Shown: piece by piece, positions 3,202 to 46,472 of the stretch
Position numbering within the stretch: position 1 is the first letter of the stretch
How the letters are laid out: every line of letters starts with the position of its first letter
From: Dehalococcoidia bacterium
GTDB lineage: Bacteria > Chloroflexota > Dehalococcoidia > CAUJGQ01
Length of the DNA: 64,000 nt
Direction: 5' to 3'
Assembly (NCBI GenBank): GCA_035310145.1
Contig: DATGEL010000078.1
Span: forward strand, 62,001 to 126,000
Translations under genes and position numbers: made by a program
Notes under the pieces: generated by a model
The model's input: only the letters and a program-made list of their open reading frames with translations
Databases searched by the model: none
Told to the model about the DNA's origin: nothing

Positions 3202-4347
3202 CTACTCGGCAAAGAGGGCGTCCACAAAGCCCTCGGGATCGAACGGCGCCATGTCGTCGGCCTTCTCGCCGGTGCCGATAAAGCGCACCGGGATGCCGAG
3301 CTGATCGGCGATGGCGAAGACGATGCCGCCCTTCGCCGTGCCATCGAGTTTGGTCAAGAAGATCGCCGTCACGCCCACGGCCTCGGCGAAGGTCTTGGCC
3401 TGGGCGAGGCCGTTCTGCCCGGTCACGGCGTCGAGCACCAGCAGCACCTCGTGCGGCGCGGTCTCGTCGAGGCGCTGCACGACGCGGTTGATCTTCTTCA
3501 GCTCCTCCATCAGGTTGGACTTGGAGTGCAGTCGGCCGGCCGTGTCCACCAGCACCACGTCGGCACTGCGCTTCTTCGCCGCCGCCATCGCGTCGAAAAC
3601 CACGGCGGAGGCGTCCTGTCCCTGTTGATGGGCGATCACCGGCGCGCCTACGCGCTCGCCCCAGAGCTTGAGCTGCTCGATCGCCGCCGCACGGAACGTG
3701 TCGCCGGCGGCGAGGATCACCCGCTCGCCGTCGCGGCGGAAGGCGCGCGCAAGCTTGGCGATGCTCGTCGTCTTCCCCACGCCGTTGACGCCGACGACGA
3801 GGATCACGGCCGGCTGGAAGGCGCGGCCGTCCACCACACCGTCGCCGTCCTGACCACCCCAGAGCTGTCCGCGGTCATCGACGTCGCTGAGCACGGCCAC
3901 CAGCTCGTCCTTGAGCGCGTCGCGCGCCTCCTCGGGTTGCTTCATCCCCTCCTTGCGCACGCGCTCCTGCACGGCGGCGAGGATCTTCTCCGTCGTCTCG
4001 GCGCCGGTGTCGGCCAGGATCAAGATCTCTTCGAGCTCATCCCACAGCTCATCGTCGATCTGCGAGCGCTCGAAGACCCCGAACATGCGCCGGAAGAAGC
4101 TGCGCTTCGTTGGCCGCAGCGCTTCTTCCGTGCGCTCCTCGACCTCCTCGTCGAAGGCGGGTCCCTCCTCGGCCTCGGCCGGCGGTTCGTCCGCCTCCGG
4201 TTCGTCGCCGGCGGAGGCTGCGAGCGCCGCTTCGTCCGCGTCGCCTCGGGCTTCTGCCTGATCGGCAAGCGACTCGGCGCCGGGCTCGGCCTCTTCACCG
4301 TCTCGCGATTTGCGGCGGAACAGTTTGAACAGGACAGGCCTCCGCAT
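3202..4347 (-). CDS. ftsY: Signal recognition particle receptor FtsY
   Basis: FtsY is the membrane-associated GTPase that receives SRP-ribosome complexes and hands nascent membrane proteins to the translocon. The 381 residues comprise an acidic N-terminal A domain (about 15-80), a helical N domain (about 85-155) and the G domain. The P-loop GVNGVGKTT is at 186-194, DTAGR at 268-272 and TKLDG near 338. A short Gly/Asp-rich insert at about 157-176 separates the N and G domains. The ATG at 4347 has no visible ribosome binding site. A GGAGG lies just inside the ORF, six bases before a CTG at 4332 that would give a family-like LFKLFRR start (376 residues). The gene is divergent from smc; ftsY, smc and rnc commonly cluster. 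Confidence 0.95.
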   Translation of the reverse strand: MRRPVLFKLFRRKSRDGEEAEPGAESLADQAEARGDADEAALAASAGDEPEADEPPAEAEEGPAFDEEVEERTEEALRPTKRSFFRRMFGVFERSQIDDELWDELEEILILADTGAETTEKILAAVQERVRKEGMKQPEEARDALKDELVAVLSDVDDRGQLWGGQDGDGVVDGRAFQPAVILVVGVNGVGKTTSIAKLARAFRRDGERVILAAGDTFRAAAIEQLKLWGERVGAPVIAHQQGQDASAVVFDAMAAAKKRSADVVLVDTAGRLHSKSNLMEELKKINRVVQRLDETAPHEVLLVLDAVTGQNGLAQAKTFAEAVGVTAIFLTKLDGTAKGGIVFAIADQLGIPVRFIGTGEKADDMAPFDPEGFVDALFAE

Positions 4348-4373: not shown

Positions 4374-4403
4374 ATCATAACAAGCGCCGCGCCGCTGCCA
4401 CAA
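4374..4403 (-). promoter_or_regulatory. Candidate ftsY promoter
   Basis: On the minus strand TTGTGG (4403-4398) and TATGAT (4379-4374) are separated by 18 bases. This places a transcript start about 20 bases before the ftsY ATG. The call rests on hexamer similarity only. Confidence 0.5.
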
Positions 4404-4433: not shown

Positions 4434-4450
4434 CTGTTATGCTATAACAG
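4434..4450 (+). promoter_or_regulatory. Palindromic -10 region upstream of smc
   Basis: CTGTTATGCTATAACAG has 7-base arms that are perfect inverted copies around GCT. It contains a plausible -10 (TATAAC at 4443-4448) 33 bases before the smc GTG. A 17-mer differing at one base occurs before lysS (39158-39174), again between divergent genes. Confidence 0.55.
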
Positions 4451-4481: not shown

Positions 4482-7400
4482 GTGTATCTCAAGCGCCTCG
4501 AGATCCAGGGCTTTAAGAGCTTCGCCGCGAAAACGGCGTTTGAGTTCGGCCCCGGCGTGACCGCGATCGTCGGACCGAACGGCAGCGGCAAGAGCAATCT
4601 GGCCGACGCCCTGCGCTGGGTGCTGGGCGAGCAAAACCCGCGCGTGCTGCGCTCCCGCAAGGCCGAAGAGGTGATCTTCGCCGGCGATCGCCGGCGTCCG
4701 CCCGCCGGCGTCGCGGAGGTCAGCATCGTCCTTGACAACGGCGATGGCTGGCTGCCGCTCGACTTTGAGGAGGTATCCGTCGCCCGCCGGCTGCACCGCT
4801 CGGGTGAGAGCGAGTACCTGATCAACCGTGCCCGCGTGCGGTTGAAGGACGTGGCGGACCTGTTCGAGCGCGCCCGGGTCGGCCAGAACAGCTACGCGAT
4901 CATGGGCCAGGGCCTGGTCGACCAGGTGCTCTACCTGCGGCCGGAGGAGCGGCGCGCCCTGATCGAAGAGGCCGCGGACGTGCGTGGACACCGCACGAAG
5001 ATCGTCGATGCGGTGGACCGGCTGAACGCCACGCGGGAGAACCTCGACCGGGTGGACCTGCTGATCGGCGAGATCGCGCCGCGCCTGGCGCAGCTCGAGG
5101 CGCAGGCACGCCAGGCCGGCGACTACGCGCGCTTGACCGAGCAGCTGGGCGCAGCGCTGCAGGCGTTCTACGCCCTGCAATGGTCGGAACGGGAGAGCGG
5201 CCTGGACGCGGCGCGCCGGCTCTACGAAGAGCGCATGCACGCGGTGGTGCAGGCTCAGGCAACGGTCGAGCGGCTGGCCGGCGAAGCGGCGGAGATCGGC
5301 GCCGAGCTTGCCGGCGAACGCGAACGCGCCGCCGCGGGCGAGCAGACGTTGCGCGAGCTGGACGATCGCATGCGCCGGGAGGAGCAGCGACTTGCCCTGC
5401 TGGCAGAGCGGCGATCGTTGATCGCACAACGGATCGAGGAGATCACGCTCGACATTGCCGGCCTGCGACACCAGCAGGCCGACTTCGCCGACGACACGTC
5501 GGTCGCTGAGACGCTTCCCGGCGCCGAGGAGGCCGAAGCCGAGCTGCAGCGCGTCGAGACCGAACTGCAGGCCGCGCGGGCGGAGCACGAGACCGCGCTG
5601 CGTGAACAGTCCGCGGCGGACGACGCGCTGCGCCAGGCACGAGCGCAGAGCAGCGCGGCCGACGACCGGTCGAGCCGGCTGGAGCGTGAACTTCGCGGGC
5701 TCGAACGAGAGCAGGCGGACCAGGCCGGACGGCGCAACGGGCTGCTGGCACGGCTGCGTAAGCAGGGCGCCGACAGCTTGCAGTACGCGCGCCGGCAGTT
5801 CGAAGCGGCACAGCGCCACGCCGCGGCGGCTGAAGCGTACGCGCTGGCGCGGGCAGAGGCGGTGGCCGGAAGCGAGGCGCGGGCTGCGGCGGATCGGGAC
5901 CGTACGAATATCGCCCACGAGCGCGAAGCGCTTGAGGCACGGCTGGAGTTGCTGGCCCGCCTGCGCGACGATGCGCGGGGCGGCGATGCGGCGCTGCGAC
6001 TGCTGGTGGACGCCGCCCAGAGCAGCGGTCCCGACGCCCCGCCCAGGCTGCTCGCGGTGTTCGCCGACCTCTTGCGCGTGCAGCGCGGTTGCGAGACGGC
6101 GATCGAAGCGGCCCTCGGCGATCAGCTCTCAGCCGTGCTCGTTCCCGAGGCGGTCGACGCCCGCGCCGCGGTGCAGGCGCTGCTGACCGGGCAAAGCGGC
6201 CGGGCAACGGTGCTGGCGCTGACAGCGCTGCGGCCGTCTCGTCCCGTGAACCTGAGTGGCGAGCGCGGTGTCGTCGGCGTGGCCTCGCGCCTGGTCAAGT
6301 GCGACGGGCGCTACCGCGACGTGGTCGACACGCTGCTCGGTCGAGTGATCGTGGTCGAGGACGACGCGGCGGCCGAGCGCATGTTGCCGCGCGGACTCGG
6401 TACGGTGGTGACGCTCGAAGGCACGCTCTACCGTTCCAGCGGGGCGATCAGTGCGGGCAAGGCTGGGGTTGGCGGACTCGCCCTCGCCTATCAGCAGGAG
6501 CTGGACGAGCTGCCGGGCCGTATGGCTGCACTGCGCGTGCTCGAAGCCGCGAAGACGCGCGAGGCCGAGCAGACAGCCGCGGACGCCGATGCGGCCGAGG
6601 GGCGCGCTCGAGCGATCGAGGCGCAACTTCGTACGGCCGAACACGAGCAGCGCGCCGCCACGGAAGGGCTGGCGAGGGCGAAGGCCGCGATCGCAGCCCT
6701 GAAGGGTGAAGCCGGCTTTCTGCGCGGCGCCGGCGCCGGCTTCGCCGACCGTCGCCTACGGCTGCGCGACGATCTCACGGCGGCGAACGCCGAGCGTGGC
6801 CGCCTCTTGCAGCAGTTTCGCGCTGCGCAGCAGCTCGCTGAACAGGCGCGGCGCCGGGCCGAGACGTGGCGCGGGCCGGTCAACGATCTGCGCGGACGGC
6901 TAGCCGCGGCGATCGGCGCCCGCCAGGCGCTGGCGCAGCAACAGGCGGCGCTGCAACGCTTGCGAGACGGCCGGCGGGCAGCCGCCGAGCGCACGGTGGA
7001 GGCGATCTCCTCCCGCACGGTGGACCTGGATCGCCGCCAGGCCGAGCTTCAGTCGGTGGAGAGCGACGAACGCGAAACCGCCGCAAGCGTCTCGCAGGCG
7101 CGAGCCGAGCTGGCCGACGCTCGCGCCGCGTTGCAGCCGCTCCGCGAGCGCGTGACATCGCTGGCCGCGCGCGAACGCGAGCTGAGCGAGGCCCATCTGG
7201 GCGGCCGGACGACGTTGATCGAACACGAGCGGGCGGCGATCGAGGCCGAGGCGGCCGTCAGCCGGCGCGGCCAGGCGATCGAACGGTTGCGCGAGGAGCT
7301 GGAGGCCGAGGGGCTGGAGCCCCCGCACGCTGAAGGCGCCGTGGCCGCGGCCGCGGCGCTTGCGGCGCGCGTACTGAGCAGCACGGCAGGCGGCGCCGAG

Positions 7401-8123
7401 CCCCTGCCCCCATTCGCCGCCGCCGAGTCGCAGGCAGCCACGCAGGCGACGATCGAGCGATTGCAGAGTCGCGTGCGCTCGCTGCGCGGCAAGATCCGCC
7501 AGCTCGGACCGGTGAACGCGCAGGCGGAGGCCGACTACGAGGAGGCGCGCGAGCGGCACGCATTCCTCAGCTCGCAGGTCGCCGATCTCCGCGTGGCCGA
7601 ACAGGACGTGCAGGTGGCGCTGGAAGAGCTGCGCCGCGTCGTGCGCGAGCGCTTCCGCGAGTCGTTCCACGCGATCAACGCCGACTTCGGCCGCTACTTC
7701 AAGACCTTCTTCGGGGGCGGCAATGCCCGCCTCGCGCTCACCGAGCCCGAGGACTACGGGGAGAGCGGCGTCGACATCCTCGCCCAGCCGCCGGGCAAGC
7801 GGCAGCAGCATCTGCAACTGCTGAGCGGCGGCGAACGCTCGCTGGCCGCCGTGGCGCTGCTCTTCGCCCTGCTTGAGACGAATCCCGCCCCGTTCTGCGT
7901 TCTGGATGAAGTCGATGCCGCGCTGGACGAGGCCAACGTCGGCCGCTTCAGCGAGACGCTGGCCACGCTGGCGCAACAAACGCAGTTCGTGCTGATCACG
8001 CACAACCGCGGCACCGTGCAGGCCGCCAGCGCGATCTACGGCATCACGATGAGCGGCGACGGCGTCTCGACGGTGCTCTCCATGCGCCTCGACGACTCCG
8101 CACCGGCCTCCGCCGAAGGGTGA
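4482..8123 (+). CDS. smc: Chromosome partition protein SMC
   Basis: SMC is the condensin ATPase that loads on DNA and extrudes or holds chromosome arms for segregation. The 1213 residues follow the family layout. The N-terminal ATPase half has Walker [10 protein letters not shown] at about 32-40, followed by a long coiled coil. A hinge lies near residues 520-640, then the returning coiled coil. The C-terminal head has the signature [15 protein letters not shown] near 1113-1127 and Walker [14 protein letters not shown] near 1137-1149. Translation starts at a GTG (4482) giving the usual [14 protein letters not shown] opening. The kleisin partners ScpA and ScpB are not in this window. The gene diverges from ftsY and converges on rnc. 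Confidence 0.97.
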
Positions 8124-37356: not shown

Positions 37357-39081
37357 TCAGCGGCTGCTGCGCGTCGGCGTCGCCCGTGCCGGCGTCGGCG
37401 TGAAGCGGCCCGAAGGCGAGGCCGCGGGACTCGCGCCGGGGCCGGCGGGCGTGCCCGCGCGCACGGTGACCGAGGTGGTGTCGATGACGCGCATGGTGCC
37501 GTCACTGACGATGACGGAGATGGTATGTGATCCCGGCGTGTCGGGCGCCGTCCACGTGATCACCGCGCGGTTGCCGGCGTCCGCAATCGGTTTTCCGTCG
37601 GCCAGCCAGCTCGGACGCAGCGTCTGCGGATTGGGTTGCTGAAGCAGCGGCGCTCCGGCTGCCTGGTACTGCTGCACCGCCGGCCAGATATTGGTGACCG
37701 CCGGATTGGCAGAGGCGTCGTCCACGGCCACGCCGCCCAGGTGATAGACCTGGACGATTTCGAGCTTGTAGCCCACGCTGAAGCTGTTTTCGATCCAGAC
37801 GGTGCGCTGGCCGTCCTGCGTCTTGTACTCAAAGGAAACAACACCCTGCGGCGTCCAGTTCGGCCCGCTGCCGCCTTCGCGGTTGATATTCTCCGCGGCC
37901 AGCGTTGCCTGGCCGCCGGTCACGAGCTTGTCCGGGTCGCGCACCGTGATCTGGCCCGCGAGACTGAGGGCCTCCAGCGTGGTCAGGGCGCGCACGCTGC
38001 CGGAATCGGCGCGCTCCTCCGAGAGGGGCGAGACCTCCAGCAGCAGCCGGTGCGAGTCGACCAGGCCCGTCAAATACTTCACGGCATCGGGGACGCGGGT
38101 GCGGTAGATCGACTGATCGCGCTCCACGGCCATGATCAGCAGATCGGCCGACCTGCCCAATGCGGCCCAGTCGTAGGCGCCCGTGTTCCAGCCGTTGGCG
38201 TCCTTGCGTGGCAGCGGCAGGCGCAGCACCAGTTTGCGGTTGGCGGCGTGCAGCTTATCCGCCAGCGCCTGCACGAACTGGGTGAAGTTGTCCTTCAGCG
38301 GCGTGTCCACCGCGGAATAGTCGAGCTCAATCCCTTCGTAGTTGCCGCGGGCCGCCTCGGCCACGATGCGATCGATGTGCGTGCTGCGCAGACCTGCGCC
38401 GGCGAGGATGCCGTTGACGTTCTGCGAGGCGGCGCCGCTTTGGGCCGTGATCGCCGGCATCACGCCGTAAGGCGCGCCCTGCGGCACGTTCACCGGGCCG
38501 CCGTTGAGCGAGCCATCGGCGGCGGGGGTGTAGGTGAACGGCGCCGCGTCCGCGATGAACTGCGCTGCGTCGGGGCTGGCGAAGGTGTTCTGCGGCAGTT
38601 CGCCAAGCACCAGGAAATCGCCGCCCGTGCGGCGCAAGACCGCGAACGACTTCGGCAGATGCATGGCGGTGGTGTTCTGAGCCTGTGTGCCGCCGGCGAT
38701 CACCTCGGCCGGTGCAAGCCGCGTCCACTTGCCGCCGTCGTAGGAGTAGATGCTTAGCCCGCGCGTGGTCGAGCGATCGCTCAGCTTGATCTGCAACGAC
38801 ACGTTTTGCCCGGCGTACTGGCCGTAGGAGGAGCCCATCACACAGTAGCCGCTGGCGTAGGCGTAGCCCTGCGGCGGCGCCGGCGCTTTGCCCGTGCAGT
38901 CCGCCACCTGGTGCGCCGACGCGCCGCCGCAGCGGCTCGCGAGGAAGATGATCACCAGGACGAGCAGGAGCAGCGCCACCAGCCCAAAGCCGACGATCGG
39001 CAGGTTGCCGCCGAACCCGAACGCTCCCGACCCGCGCTCACCGCCGCGCAAACCCAGCGGACCAGCGCCGCGCCGGGTCAT
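37357..39081 (-). CDS. Membrane-anchored GH18-like protein lacking the catalytic acid
   Basis: This is a 574-residue extracytoplasmic protein. One span at about 28-49 anchors it. A small domain (about 58-160) and a TIM-barrel-like region follow, in which GNYEGIELDYSAV (about 246-258) occupies the place of the chitinase motif DGxDxDxE. The final Glu, the acid/base of GH18 enzymes, is replaced by Ser256, so hydrolysis is unlikely. Later segments (ADLLIMAVERDQ, LVDSHRLLLEVSPLSEE, EYKTQDGQRTVWIEN, YKLEIVQVYHLGGVAV) fit the SpoVS/YdhD-like GH18 layout. A C-terminal Ig/PKD-like domain (about 480-545) and a Pro/Thr tail follow. It may bind peptidoglycan or chitin-like glycans. Confidence 0.78.
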   Translation of the reverse strand: MTRRGAGPLGLRGGERGSGAFGFGGNLPIVGFGLVALLLLVLVIIFLASRCGGASAHQVADCTGKAPAPPQGYAYASGYCVMGSSYGQYAGQNVSLQIKLSDRSTTRGLSIYSYDGGKWTRLAPAEVIAGGTQAQNTTAMHLPKSFAVLRRTGGDFLVLGELPQNTFASPDAAQFIADAAPFTYTPAADGSLNGGPVNVPQGAPYGVMPAITAQSGAASQNVNGILAGAGLRSTHIDRIVAEAARGNYEGIELDYSAVDTPLKDNFTQFVQALADKLHAANRKLVLRLPLPRKDANGWNTGAYDWAALGRSADLLIMAVERDQSIYRTRVPDAVKYLTGLVDSHRLLLEVSPLSEERADSGSVRALTTLEALSLAGQITVRDPDKLVTGGQATLAAENINREGGSGPNWTPQGVVSFEYKTQDGQRTVWIENSFSVGYKLEIVQVYHLGGVAVDDASANPAVTNIWPAVQQYQAAGAPLLQQPNPQTLRPSWLADGKPIADAGNRAVITWTAPDTPGSHTISVIVSDGTMRVIDTTSVTVRAGTPAGPGASPAASPSGRFTPTPARATPTRSSR

Positions 39082-39157: not shown

Positions 39158-39174
39158 CTGTCATGCTATAACAG
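39158..39174 (+). promoter_or_regulatory. Palindromic -10 region upstream of lysS
   Basis: CTGTCATGCTATAACAG differs at one base from the palindrome upstream of smc (4434-4450). It lies between the divergent GH18-like gene and lysS, 155 bases before the lysS start. The 247-base gap 39082-39328 holds no other recognisable feature. Confidence 0.5.
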
Positions 39175-39328: not shown

Positions 39329-40903
39329 GTGGACGAGCGCACAGACGAACTGTTCGAGCAGCGCCGTGCCAAGGCGGAGCGCCTGCGCGCCCTTGGCGCC
39401 GATCCGTACCCGATCCGTGCCCACGGCACGCATACGGCCGCGCAGGCGCTCGCACAGTTTGAGCGGAACGAAGGCGGCGGAGAGCAGACCTCAGGCGACG
39501 TCAGCGTCTGCGGGCGGCTGCGGCCGCTGCGCATCATGGGCAAGAAGGCGATCTTCGCCCATCTTGAAGACTCGACCGGCGAGATCCAGGCCTATTTCAA
39601 GCGCGATCTGCTCGGCGAAACCGGCTGGGCCGTACTGGAGCAGCTCGAGTTCGGCGATTTCGTGCAGGTGCAGGGGCCGCTGTTCCGCACCCGCATGGGC
39701 GAGATCACGATCGAAGCGCGGGCGCTGACGGTGCTCGCCAAGGCGCTGCGCCCGCCGCCGGAGAAGTGGCACGCCATCAGCGATGTCGAGTTGAAGTACC
39801 GCCAGCGCTATCTCGATCTGATGTCGAGCGCCGAGGTGCGCAGGCGCTTCCAGCGGCGCAGCCAGATCGTCGCCGCCATCCGCCGCTTTATGGACGGCCG
39901 CGGCTTCATCGAGGTCGAGACGCCGGTGCTGCAGAGTGAAGCCGGCGGTGCGGCGGCGCGGCCGTTCACCACCTTCTTCAACGCGCTCGACGAGCAGCGC
40001 TACCTGCGCATCTCGCTGGAGCTGCATCTCAAGCGGCTGCTGGTCGGCGGCCTGGACCGGGTGTACGAGATCGGCCGCATCTTCCGCAACGAGGGCGTGG
40101 ACGCGCTGCACAACCCCGAATTTACGATGATGGAGAGCTACCAGGCCTACGCCGACTACCAAGAGGTCGCCGAGATGGTCGAGCAACTGGTGGCCACCGT
40201 CGCGCAGCAGGTGCTGGGCACGACCGTGGTGCCCCACGGCGAGAGCACGCTCGACCTGACGCCCCCGTGGCAGCGCATCACTATGCGCAACGCCCTGATC
40301 GAGTTCGCCCGTCTCGACTTCGAGGCGTATCGCGACGAGGCGGCGCTGCGCCGCTGGATGGCGGAGCGCCGCCTGCACGCGGCGCCGGAGGCGGGCTGGG
40401 GCAAACTCATCGACGAGGTCTTCTCCGAGCTGGTGCAACCCCACCTGCAGCAGCCCGTATTTGTGCTGGACTATCCGGTCGAGCTCTCGCCGCTGGCGAA
40501 GCGCAAGCCGGACGACCCGGGGCTGGTGGAACGCTTCGAGCCCTTCGTCGGCGGCTTCGAGATCGGCAACGCCTACAGCGAGCTGAACGACCCGATCGAC
40601 CAGCGCGAGCGCTTCGTCGCCCAGATCGCCGCCCGCACGCGCGGTGACGACGAGGCCGAGCTGATGGACGAGGACTTTTTGACGGCGCTGGAGCACGGCA
40701 TGCCGCCCGCCGGCGGCCTCGGCCTCGGCATCGACCGGCTGGTGATGATTCTGCTGAACGAGCCGACGATCCGCGAAGTCCTGCTCTTCCCGGCGCTTCG
40801 CACGAAGCGTATCGCCGCCGGCGGTGTGGAGAGTGCCGAGCGATTCGGCACCGCCACGATTAGTCAGCCTATGCCGCCTTCAGCACCCACCGATGGCGCC
40901 TGA
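39329..40903 (+). CDS. lysS: Lysyl-tRNA synthetase, class II
   Basis: This enzyme charges tRNA-Lys. The 524 residues start at a GTG (39329). They comprise an N-terminal OB-fold anticodon-binding domain (about 65-150) and a class II catalytic domain with motif 1 near 175-200, motif 2 RIFRNEGVDALHNPEFTMME (about 251-270) and motif 3 GLGIDRLVM near 468-476. A ~30-residue tail after LLFPALRTKR is extra relative to many bacterial enzymes. Its stop codon overlaps the start of the Nudix gene by 11 bases. The leader contains no T-box. The palindromic -10 region is the only regulatory candidate. Confidence 0.97.
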   Translation: MDERTDELFEQRRAKAERLRALGADPYPIRAHGTHTAAQALAQFERNEGGGEQTSGDVSVCGRLRPLRIMGKKAIFAHLEDSTGEIQAYFKRDLLGETGWAVLEQLEFGDFVQVQGPLFRTRMGEITIEARALTVLAKALRPPPEKWHAISDVELKYRQRYLDLMSSAEVRRRFQRRSQIVAAIRRFMDGRGFIEVETPVLQSEAGGAAARPFTTFFNALDEQRYLRISLELHLKRLLVGGLDRVYEIGRIFRNEGVDALHNPEFTMMESYQAYADYQEVAEMVEQLVATVAQQVLGTTVVPHGESTLDLTPPWQRITMRNALIEFARLDFEAYRDEAALRRWMAERRLHAAPEAGWGKLIDEVFSELVQPHLQQPVFVLDYPVELSPLAKRKPDDPGLVERFEPFVGGFEIGNAYSELNDPIDQRERFVAQIAARTRGDDEAELMDEDFLTALEHGMPPAGGLGLGIDRLVMILLNEPTIREVLLFPALRTKRIAAGGVESAERFGTATISQPMPPSAPTDGA

Positions 40904-46127: not shown

Positions 46128-46472
46128 CGCTGCCCGTCTCCCCTGCCGGGCGCTTCGCCGCGCCCGCCGCGTCGCCCGATGATAGGCGCATGCCGGGCCT
46201 ACGATCCAGCCGCCCGCGACGGCTCACCGCGCCGGCGTGGCGTGTTGCAAAAGCGCGGCATAAAACAAGCCCTTGATATGGCATAACAGAGGGATCGCGA
46301 GCACTCACGCGGGATGGCCGTCGCTGGACGCTCGCTGGCCGCGTTGACGCCCCGCCAGCGCGCGGCGTACAACGGGGCCACTGGCTCAATTTCCCTCATT
46401 TCTCTGCGTTAGCTCCGATCGGCGGCGTCCGGGTTCTGCCGGCGCTCTGCCGGGCTGTGCGGGATCCCTGCC
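46128..46472. other. Divergent intergenic region
   Basis: The 345 bases carry no gene that I can support. A central AT-richer stretch (46257-46292) holds direct repeats GGCATAAAACA and GGCATAACA and a weak palindromic -10-like element (46273-46289). The right half (46300-46460) contains only GC-rich sequence with short direct repeats of GCTCTGCCGG type. Confidence 0.6.
46273..46289 (+). promoter_or_regulatory. Degenerate copy of the palindromic -10 region
   Basis: TTGATATGGCATAACAG matches the smc upstream palindrome at 13 of 17 positions and again lies between divergent genes (45630-46127 and 46473-47792). Confidence 0.35.

Follow-up and report, generated by a model that had tools for sequence, protein, structure and literature searches.

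Two near-identical 17-base palindromes are located in the window, i.e., the whole stretch of 64,000 nucleotides that was analysed (Table 1). The first, CTGTTATGCTATAACAG, precedes smc, with ftsY as the divergent neighbour; the second, CTGTCATGCTATAACAG, precedes a putative lysS (the name comes from the initial annotation), with a GH18-like gene on the other side. The initial annotation had pointed to both copies, and its description is borne out: they differ only at position 5 (T or C), each contains a -10-like TATAAC, and each has inverted-repeat arms, which are perfect in the smc copy and carry one mismatch in the lysS copy. It had also noted that each copy lies between divergent genes. This is true of the two sites in the window, but it does not hold for the motif in general: elsewhere in the genome, the sites at parA, ligA, a DnaQ-like exonuclease gene, dnaX, and divIC lie between co-directional genes.

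When up to three mismatches are allowed, the 17-mer has five matches in the window, one of which is the smc site read backwards. The chance expectation from dinucleotide shuffling is 0.02 sites, and none of 100 shuffles reached five. The weak copy TTGATATGGCATAACAG, whose neighbours are not replication genes, may be a chance match. A search for structured RNA in 16 loci gave no Rfam match, and within the window only a tRNA was found.

Table 1. Palindromic sites, promoter elements and genes in the window, and genes near further sites in the genome (top site: no more than one arm mismatch; L numbers denote loci)
Feature	Position	Strand	Remark
Operator-like palindrome CTGTTATGCTATAACAG (top site)	4434..4450	+	perfect CTGTTA/TAACAG 6-base arms; smc start 31 bases on
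-10 hexamer TATAAC	4443..4448	+	TGC before it (extended -10); read toward smc
smc, chromosome segregation protein SMC	4482..8123	+	TIGR02168; GTG start
ftsY, SRP54-type GTPase	3202..4347	-	SRP54 domain; start 4347; divergent neighbour of smc
-10-like TATGAT	4374..4379	-	TG before it; GTGGCA at 4396-4401, gap 16; could serve ftsY
Operator-like palindrome CTGTCATGCTATAACAG (top site)	39158..39174	+	one arm mismatch; lysS start 154 bases on
-10 hexamer TATAAC	39167..39172	+	TGC before it; read toward lysS
lysS (putative)	39329..40903	+	
GH18-like gene	37357..39081	-	start 39081; divergent neighbour of lysS
Weak copy TTGATATGGCATAACAG	46273..46289		two arm mismatches
Top site before DnaQ-like RNase_T exonuclease gene			35 bases to start
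Top site before parA, ParA-type ATPase			83 bases to start
Top site before dnaA			28 bases to start
Top site before PcrA/UvrD helicase gene			1 base to start
Top site before thyX			34 bases to start
Top site before ligA, NAD-dependent			24 bases to start
Top site before methyltransferase gene			2 bases to start; gatC on other side
Top site before glyoxalase-like gene	C8:178		61 bases to start; then XRE/MLTR regulator; translation by eye, no Pfam match
XRE regulator, HTH_31 + MLTR	L010, 178-1556		second gene after the one-mismatch site C8:178
69-aa excisionase/BldC-like HTH_17 protein	L018, 1501-2632		two-mismatch site
ArsR-like regulator	L031		177 bases from site
Response regulator	L019		start ~880 bases away
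Response regulator	L029		read toward site; start ~990 bases away

The draft genome that contains the window (G000; 5.32 Mb in 148 contigs) was scanned with the 17-mer at up to three mismatches, and the reversed, non-complemented motif was used as a control. Ten forward and 19 reverse matches were found, compared with 0 and 2 for the control. Written as an inverted repeat, CTGTTA-N5-TAACAG, the motif occurs 14 times with no more than one arm mismatch (control, 0) and 43 times with no more than two (control, 12); two pairs among the 43 overlap (C103:50270/50278 and C76:23063/23071). Exact TGTTA..TAACA pairs at spacings from 0 to 30 number ten (control, four), and the spacing is exactly 5 in seven of the ten. 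An order-3 Markov model, trained on approximately 0.3 Mb of G000, produced no site with one mismatch or fewer in 53 Mb of simulated sequence and 14.3 sites per genome with two or fewer. Given these expectations, almost all of the 14 top sites are non-random, while about one third of the 43 may be due to chance.

Gene starts were predicted using a small purpose-made codon-usage gene finder, and the genes were identified by family searches, which covered the neighbours of all sites other than those in L017, L021, L030, and L038. The initial annotation had suggested a genome scan for random placement of the motif, and the placement is not random: 10 of the 14 top sites are followed by a predicted start 1–154 bases downstream. 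No clear target gene was recognised at the other four (C93:57750, C39:81338, C61:65849, and C80:53536), and the C61 site adjoins an insertion-sequence-like ORF, as judged from its translation by eye. Seven of the 14 precede genes of replication, segregation, or nucleotide metabolism, namely dnaA, smc, parA, ligA, pcrA/uvrD, the DnaQ-like exonuclease gene, and thyX; if 6% of genes are assumed to be of this kind, the binomial probability is approximately 7e-6. Two-mismatch sites are found upstream of dnaX, xerD, divIC, and the genes encoding a VanY peptidase, Ddl, and a penicillin-binding protein. The mutS gene has a weak two-mismatch site 141 bases off, and dgt is separated from a PKD-domain gene by a region with a further two-mismatch site, whose TATAAC faces the PKD gene.

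At three genes, the palindrome ends 1–4 bases before the ATG: pcrA/uvrD (L007, 1499), the methyltransferase gene (L027, 1498), and vanY (L040, 1996). If the core serves as the -10 element there, leaderless messages would follow. One more two-mismatch site lies approximately 540 bases before a phage-portal-like gene in a long gap (L013, 1501-3015), possibly belonging to a prophage.

An independent set of genes, located with E. coli protein queries, comprised recA, gyrA, gyrB, ftsZ, dnaB, dnaG, two dnaE genes, polA, and dnaN, with tsaD as a non-replication control. The one gene of these ten with a site is dnaB (TTGTTATACCATTACAA, three mismatches, approximately 43 bases before the likely start). 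Eight (recA, gyrA, gyrB, ftsZ, polA, dnaN, and both dnaE genes) have no site within three mismatches at their own promoters, and none lies directly upstream of dnaG; this gene shares its strand with dgt and lies some 1 kb past it, with one more ORF in between. Since this set is mostly negative, a regulon would be a subset of the replication genes, including initiation, clamp loading, ligation, segregation, and dTMP synthesis and excluding gyrase, the sliding clamp, and polymerase. Several of the site-free promoters carry GCTATAAT-like cores, such as CTATAAT (ACTATAAT) at gyrB, GCTATACT at dnaN, GCTATGAT at ftsZ, and GCTATAGT at dnaE, and no arms were detected within three mismatches at these four promoters.

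The relationship between the arms and the -10 element can be traced across the top sites. TATAAY is present on one strand in nine of the 14, and in seven of these nine, Gn occupies the place of a TGn extension before it. At smc, lysS, dnaA, parA, and the DnaQ-like gene, the hexamer is directed at the gene; in the sequences inspected by eye for smc, lysS, and dnaA, there is no -35 element at the usual distance. All five look like extended -10 promoters, with the palindrome covering approximately -22 to -6. The same facts, together with the numerous housekeeping genes among the targets, would be expected if the motif were a promoter class, in which the main sigma factor or an alternative one recognises CTGTTATGCTATAAC, a variant of the extended -10, and the inverted repeat is incidental. 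We consider this unlikely, given how the arms behave. Both are kept without TATAAY in five of the 14 sites (ligA, thyX, methyltransferase, C8:178, and C93:57750), and a further -10-like hexamer follows downstream of the site at ligA (TATACT, 12 bases farther down), xerD (TATGGT), and divIC (TATGAT). Other housekeeping -10 elements lack the arms, and the hexamer in the palindromes ends in C rather than T, a base required by the arm and not by the -10. Genome-wide, there are just 11 instances of the complete extended -10, TRTGNTATAAY, and five of them fall within palindromes. Because the arms persist without TATAAY, the site-free promoters have ordinary cores, and TRTGNTATAAY is rare, the arms appear to have been added to the promoter. 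An exact TATGCTATAAC core without arms was also seen before a short ORF that resembles a RelE/HigB-type toxin by eye (L159, 1501-1511; C81:7399).

With a probability of about two in three, judging from the sequence, the two 17-mers of the window are operator copies for one dimeric transcription factor, forming a 6-5-6 inverted repeat. What is found is what a single-factor operator would look like: a repeated palindrome with fixed spacing at the promoters of functionally linked genes. As the arms and their spacing are shared, one protein would act at all the sites. A dimeric repressor bound to a palindrome that spans the -10 and the start region keeps RNA polymerase out. The palindromes here would either overlap the extended -10 and the region around the start or lie shortly upstream of the -10, and a protein bound to them could repress by covering the -10; the regulator is, therefore, probably a repressor. 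Such a site for one repressor covering the -10 was the second of two readings offered by the initial annotation, and the constant spacing of 5 (7/10) and the coherent gene set support it. Repressors that target the core promoter are described in PMC12825309. The sites at ligA, xerD, and divIC lie closer to the -35, from where repression or activation would be conceivable. The putative targets would include dnaA, smc, parA, ligA, pcrA/uvrD, the DnaQ-like exonuclease gene, and thyX, plus lysS, and probably dnaX, xerD, dnaB, and divIC, and the regulator may tie the output of replication genes to a growth or stress signal.

A special case of the operator reading names the regulator: an XRE-family repressor acting on a DNA-damage operator of the DdrO/RDRM type. 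In Deinococcus, as described in PMC8533742, the radiation-desiccation response motif (RDRM) is a 17-base palindrome of 6-5-6 layout close to promoters, with sites such as TTATGTCATTGACATAA and targets including ligA, mutS, and further DNA-maintenance genes. Length and layout at promoters are equal here, ligA and mutS overlap, and the XRE-type gene with HTH_31 and MLTR domains in L010 is the only regulator recognised behind a top site. We find this identification rather doubtful: the half-site is CTGTTA and not TTATGT, no site was found at recA, gyrA, or gyrB, and the L010 regulator, being the second gene, may be unrelated. It is a candidate for autoregulation, as a lead and no more; among the scanned site neighbours, no autoregulated regulator that would lead to the protein was convincing. 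Small ORFs near the excisionase/BldC-like gene of L018 resemble a toxin–antitoxin pair when translated by eye.

That the palindrome is the box of a Fur-family (Zur-like) metalloregulator is very unlikely. The E. coli Zur box is GAAATGTTATA-N-TATAACATTTC with the core TGTTATANTATAACA, and its central TATA is contacted by Zur, according to PMC4219657. The 15-mer at smc, TGTTATGCTATAACA, is one specified base from this core, and three Fur homologues are encoded in G000; however, across the 14 sites the arms agree while the central TATA varies, the scanned site neighbours include no recognised zinc gene, and none of the three fur loci has a site within three mismatches.

The other reading of the initial annotation, a bidirectional core promoter, drew on the divergent genes at both window sites and on symmetric -10 regions being known to fire in both directions. 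Such firing does occur in E. coli (PMC12825309), but the reading is hardly credible here: the -10 is readable on both strands in none of the nine TATAAY-bearing top sites, position 8, where A is needed for core symmetry, is G in seven of the nine, ftsY has a promoter-like element of its own (Table 1), and the genes on the two sides of several sites run in the same direction. As position 8 is G, as in the TGn of an extended -10, the reverse strand reads CATAAC at the smc site; at the lysS site it reads CATGAC. No promoter-like element was found upstream of the GH18-like gene, so weak divergent firing toward it may occur.

LexA was considered and rejected as the regulator. The LexA gene is present in G000, and the lexA and recA promoters carry the canonical GAAC-N4-GTTC without the palindrome within three mismatches. 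The intergenic region between xerD and a divergent gene for a 255-aa protein, which has no Pfam or NCBIfam match, contains both a LexA box, GAACGTGTGTTC (C15:3127), and the palindrome (C15:3050), within L028 2000-2180 (C15:3050-3138). In G001, the only genome of the same family that was compared, the LexA-like AGAACACGTGTTCT alone is found upstream of xerD, with no palindrome. A second gene with a LexA_DNA_bind match (L195, upstream of 1501, C77) is preceded by TTAGCACTC-N9-GAGTGCTAA, which we take to be a CIRCE element; this gene is, therefore, probably hrcA.

The motif was also sought in relatives. The G001 genome has one site against two control matches, and the motif is missing upstream of its dnaA, dnaX, ligA, parA, smc, and xerD orthologues; these six give no support from conservation. 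By eye, smc in G001 follows an apparent rnc. Among 294 genomes of the class, none other combines many sites with zero control matches; the nearest is G018 (11 sites vs. 3 control matches), and G022 and G009 have 4 vs. 0 and 6 vs. 2, respectively. Orthologues in G001, G018, G022, and G009 have no site within two mismatches near their starts. As the replication genes located in G018, G022, and G009 lack sites, the matches in these three genomes look compositional or unrelated. With no more than one mismatch, TGTTATGCTATAACA occurs in 26 of 400 genomes of the phylum, at six places in G000 and at no more than two in any other. An SMC search of genome contigs found no close relative, the best match being a Dehalococcoidia MAG with 38% identity, from which the class was taken to be Dehalococcoidia. 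The motif is, as far as DNA sequence can tell, a real, lineage-specific, operator-like element at replication and segregation promoters.

Tentatively, one deep Dehalococcoidia lineage might have gained a dedicated regulator, or rewired one, that sets the expression of dnaA and of helicase, clamp-loader, ligase, smc/parA/xerD, and dTMP synthesis genes as one block, a replication-phase regulon separate from SOS and absent from G001. To our knowledge, the joint regulation of replication, segregation, and nucleotide genes is unstudied in Chloroflexota. No published report of the motif or of a Chloroflexota replication regulon was found in the open-licence PMC literature, which leaves absence unproven. 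The absence from G001 would point to a possible rewiring of the control of some of a cell's most conserved genes, and the defined 17-base bait before dnaA, smc, parA, ligA, and thyX offers a direct way to fish for the regulator.

Several known systems can be compared with these sites. Like the symmetric -10 promoters (Warman, Grainger), the window sites have a -10 within a pseudo-symmetric sequence between divergent genes; unlike in those promoters, their core lacks symmetry, and the arms extend beyond the bases that a -10 requires. The LexA SOS box is likewise a palindrome at DNA-maintenance promoters, and LexA is found in the same genome, but its box at lexA and recA differs from the palindrome. 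In Alphaproteobacteria, CtrA and GcrA are single regulators that join replication, segregation, and division genes, as one regulator would here, although the motifs and the phylum are different. The gamma-proteobacterial Zur box (PMC4219657) is also an odd palindrome and is the closest by letters to the smc site, whereas the centre is variable here, no zinc genes were recognised among the targets, and the three Fur-family loci have no site. The RDRM of the Deinococcus DdrO/IrrE system, as described in PMC8533742 and judged on the sites alone, is the closest in layout and purpose; the targets here, in contrast, are dnaA, smc, parA, thyX, and xerD.
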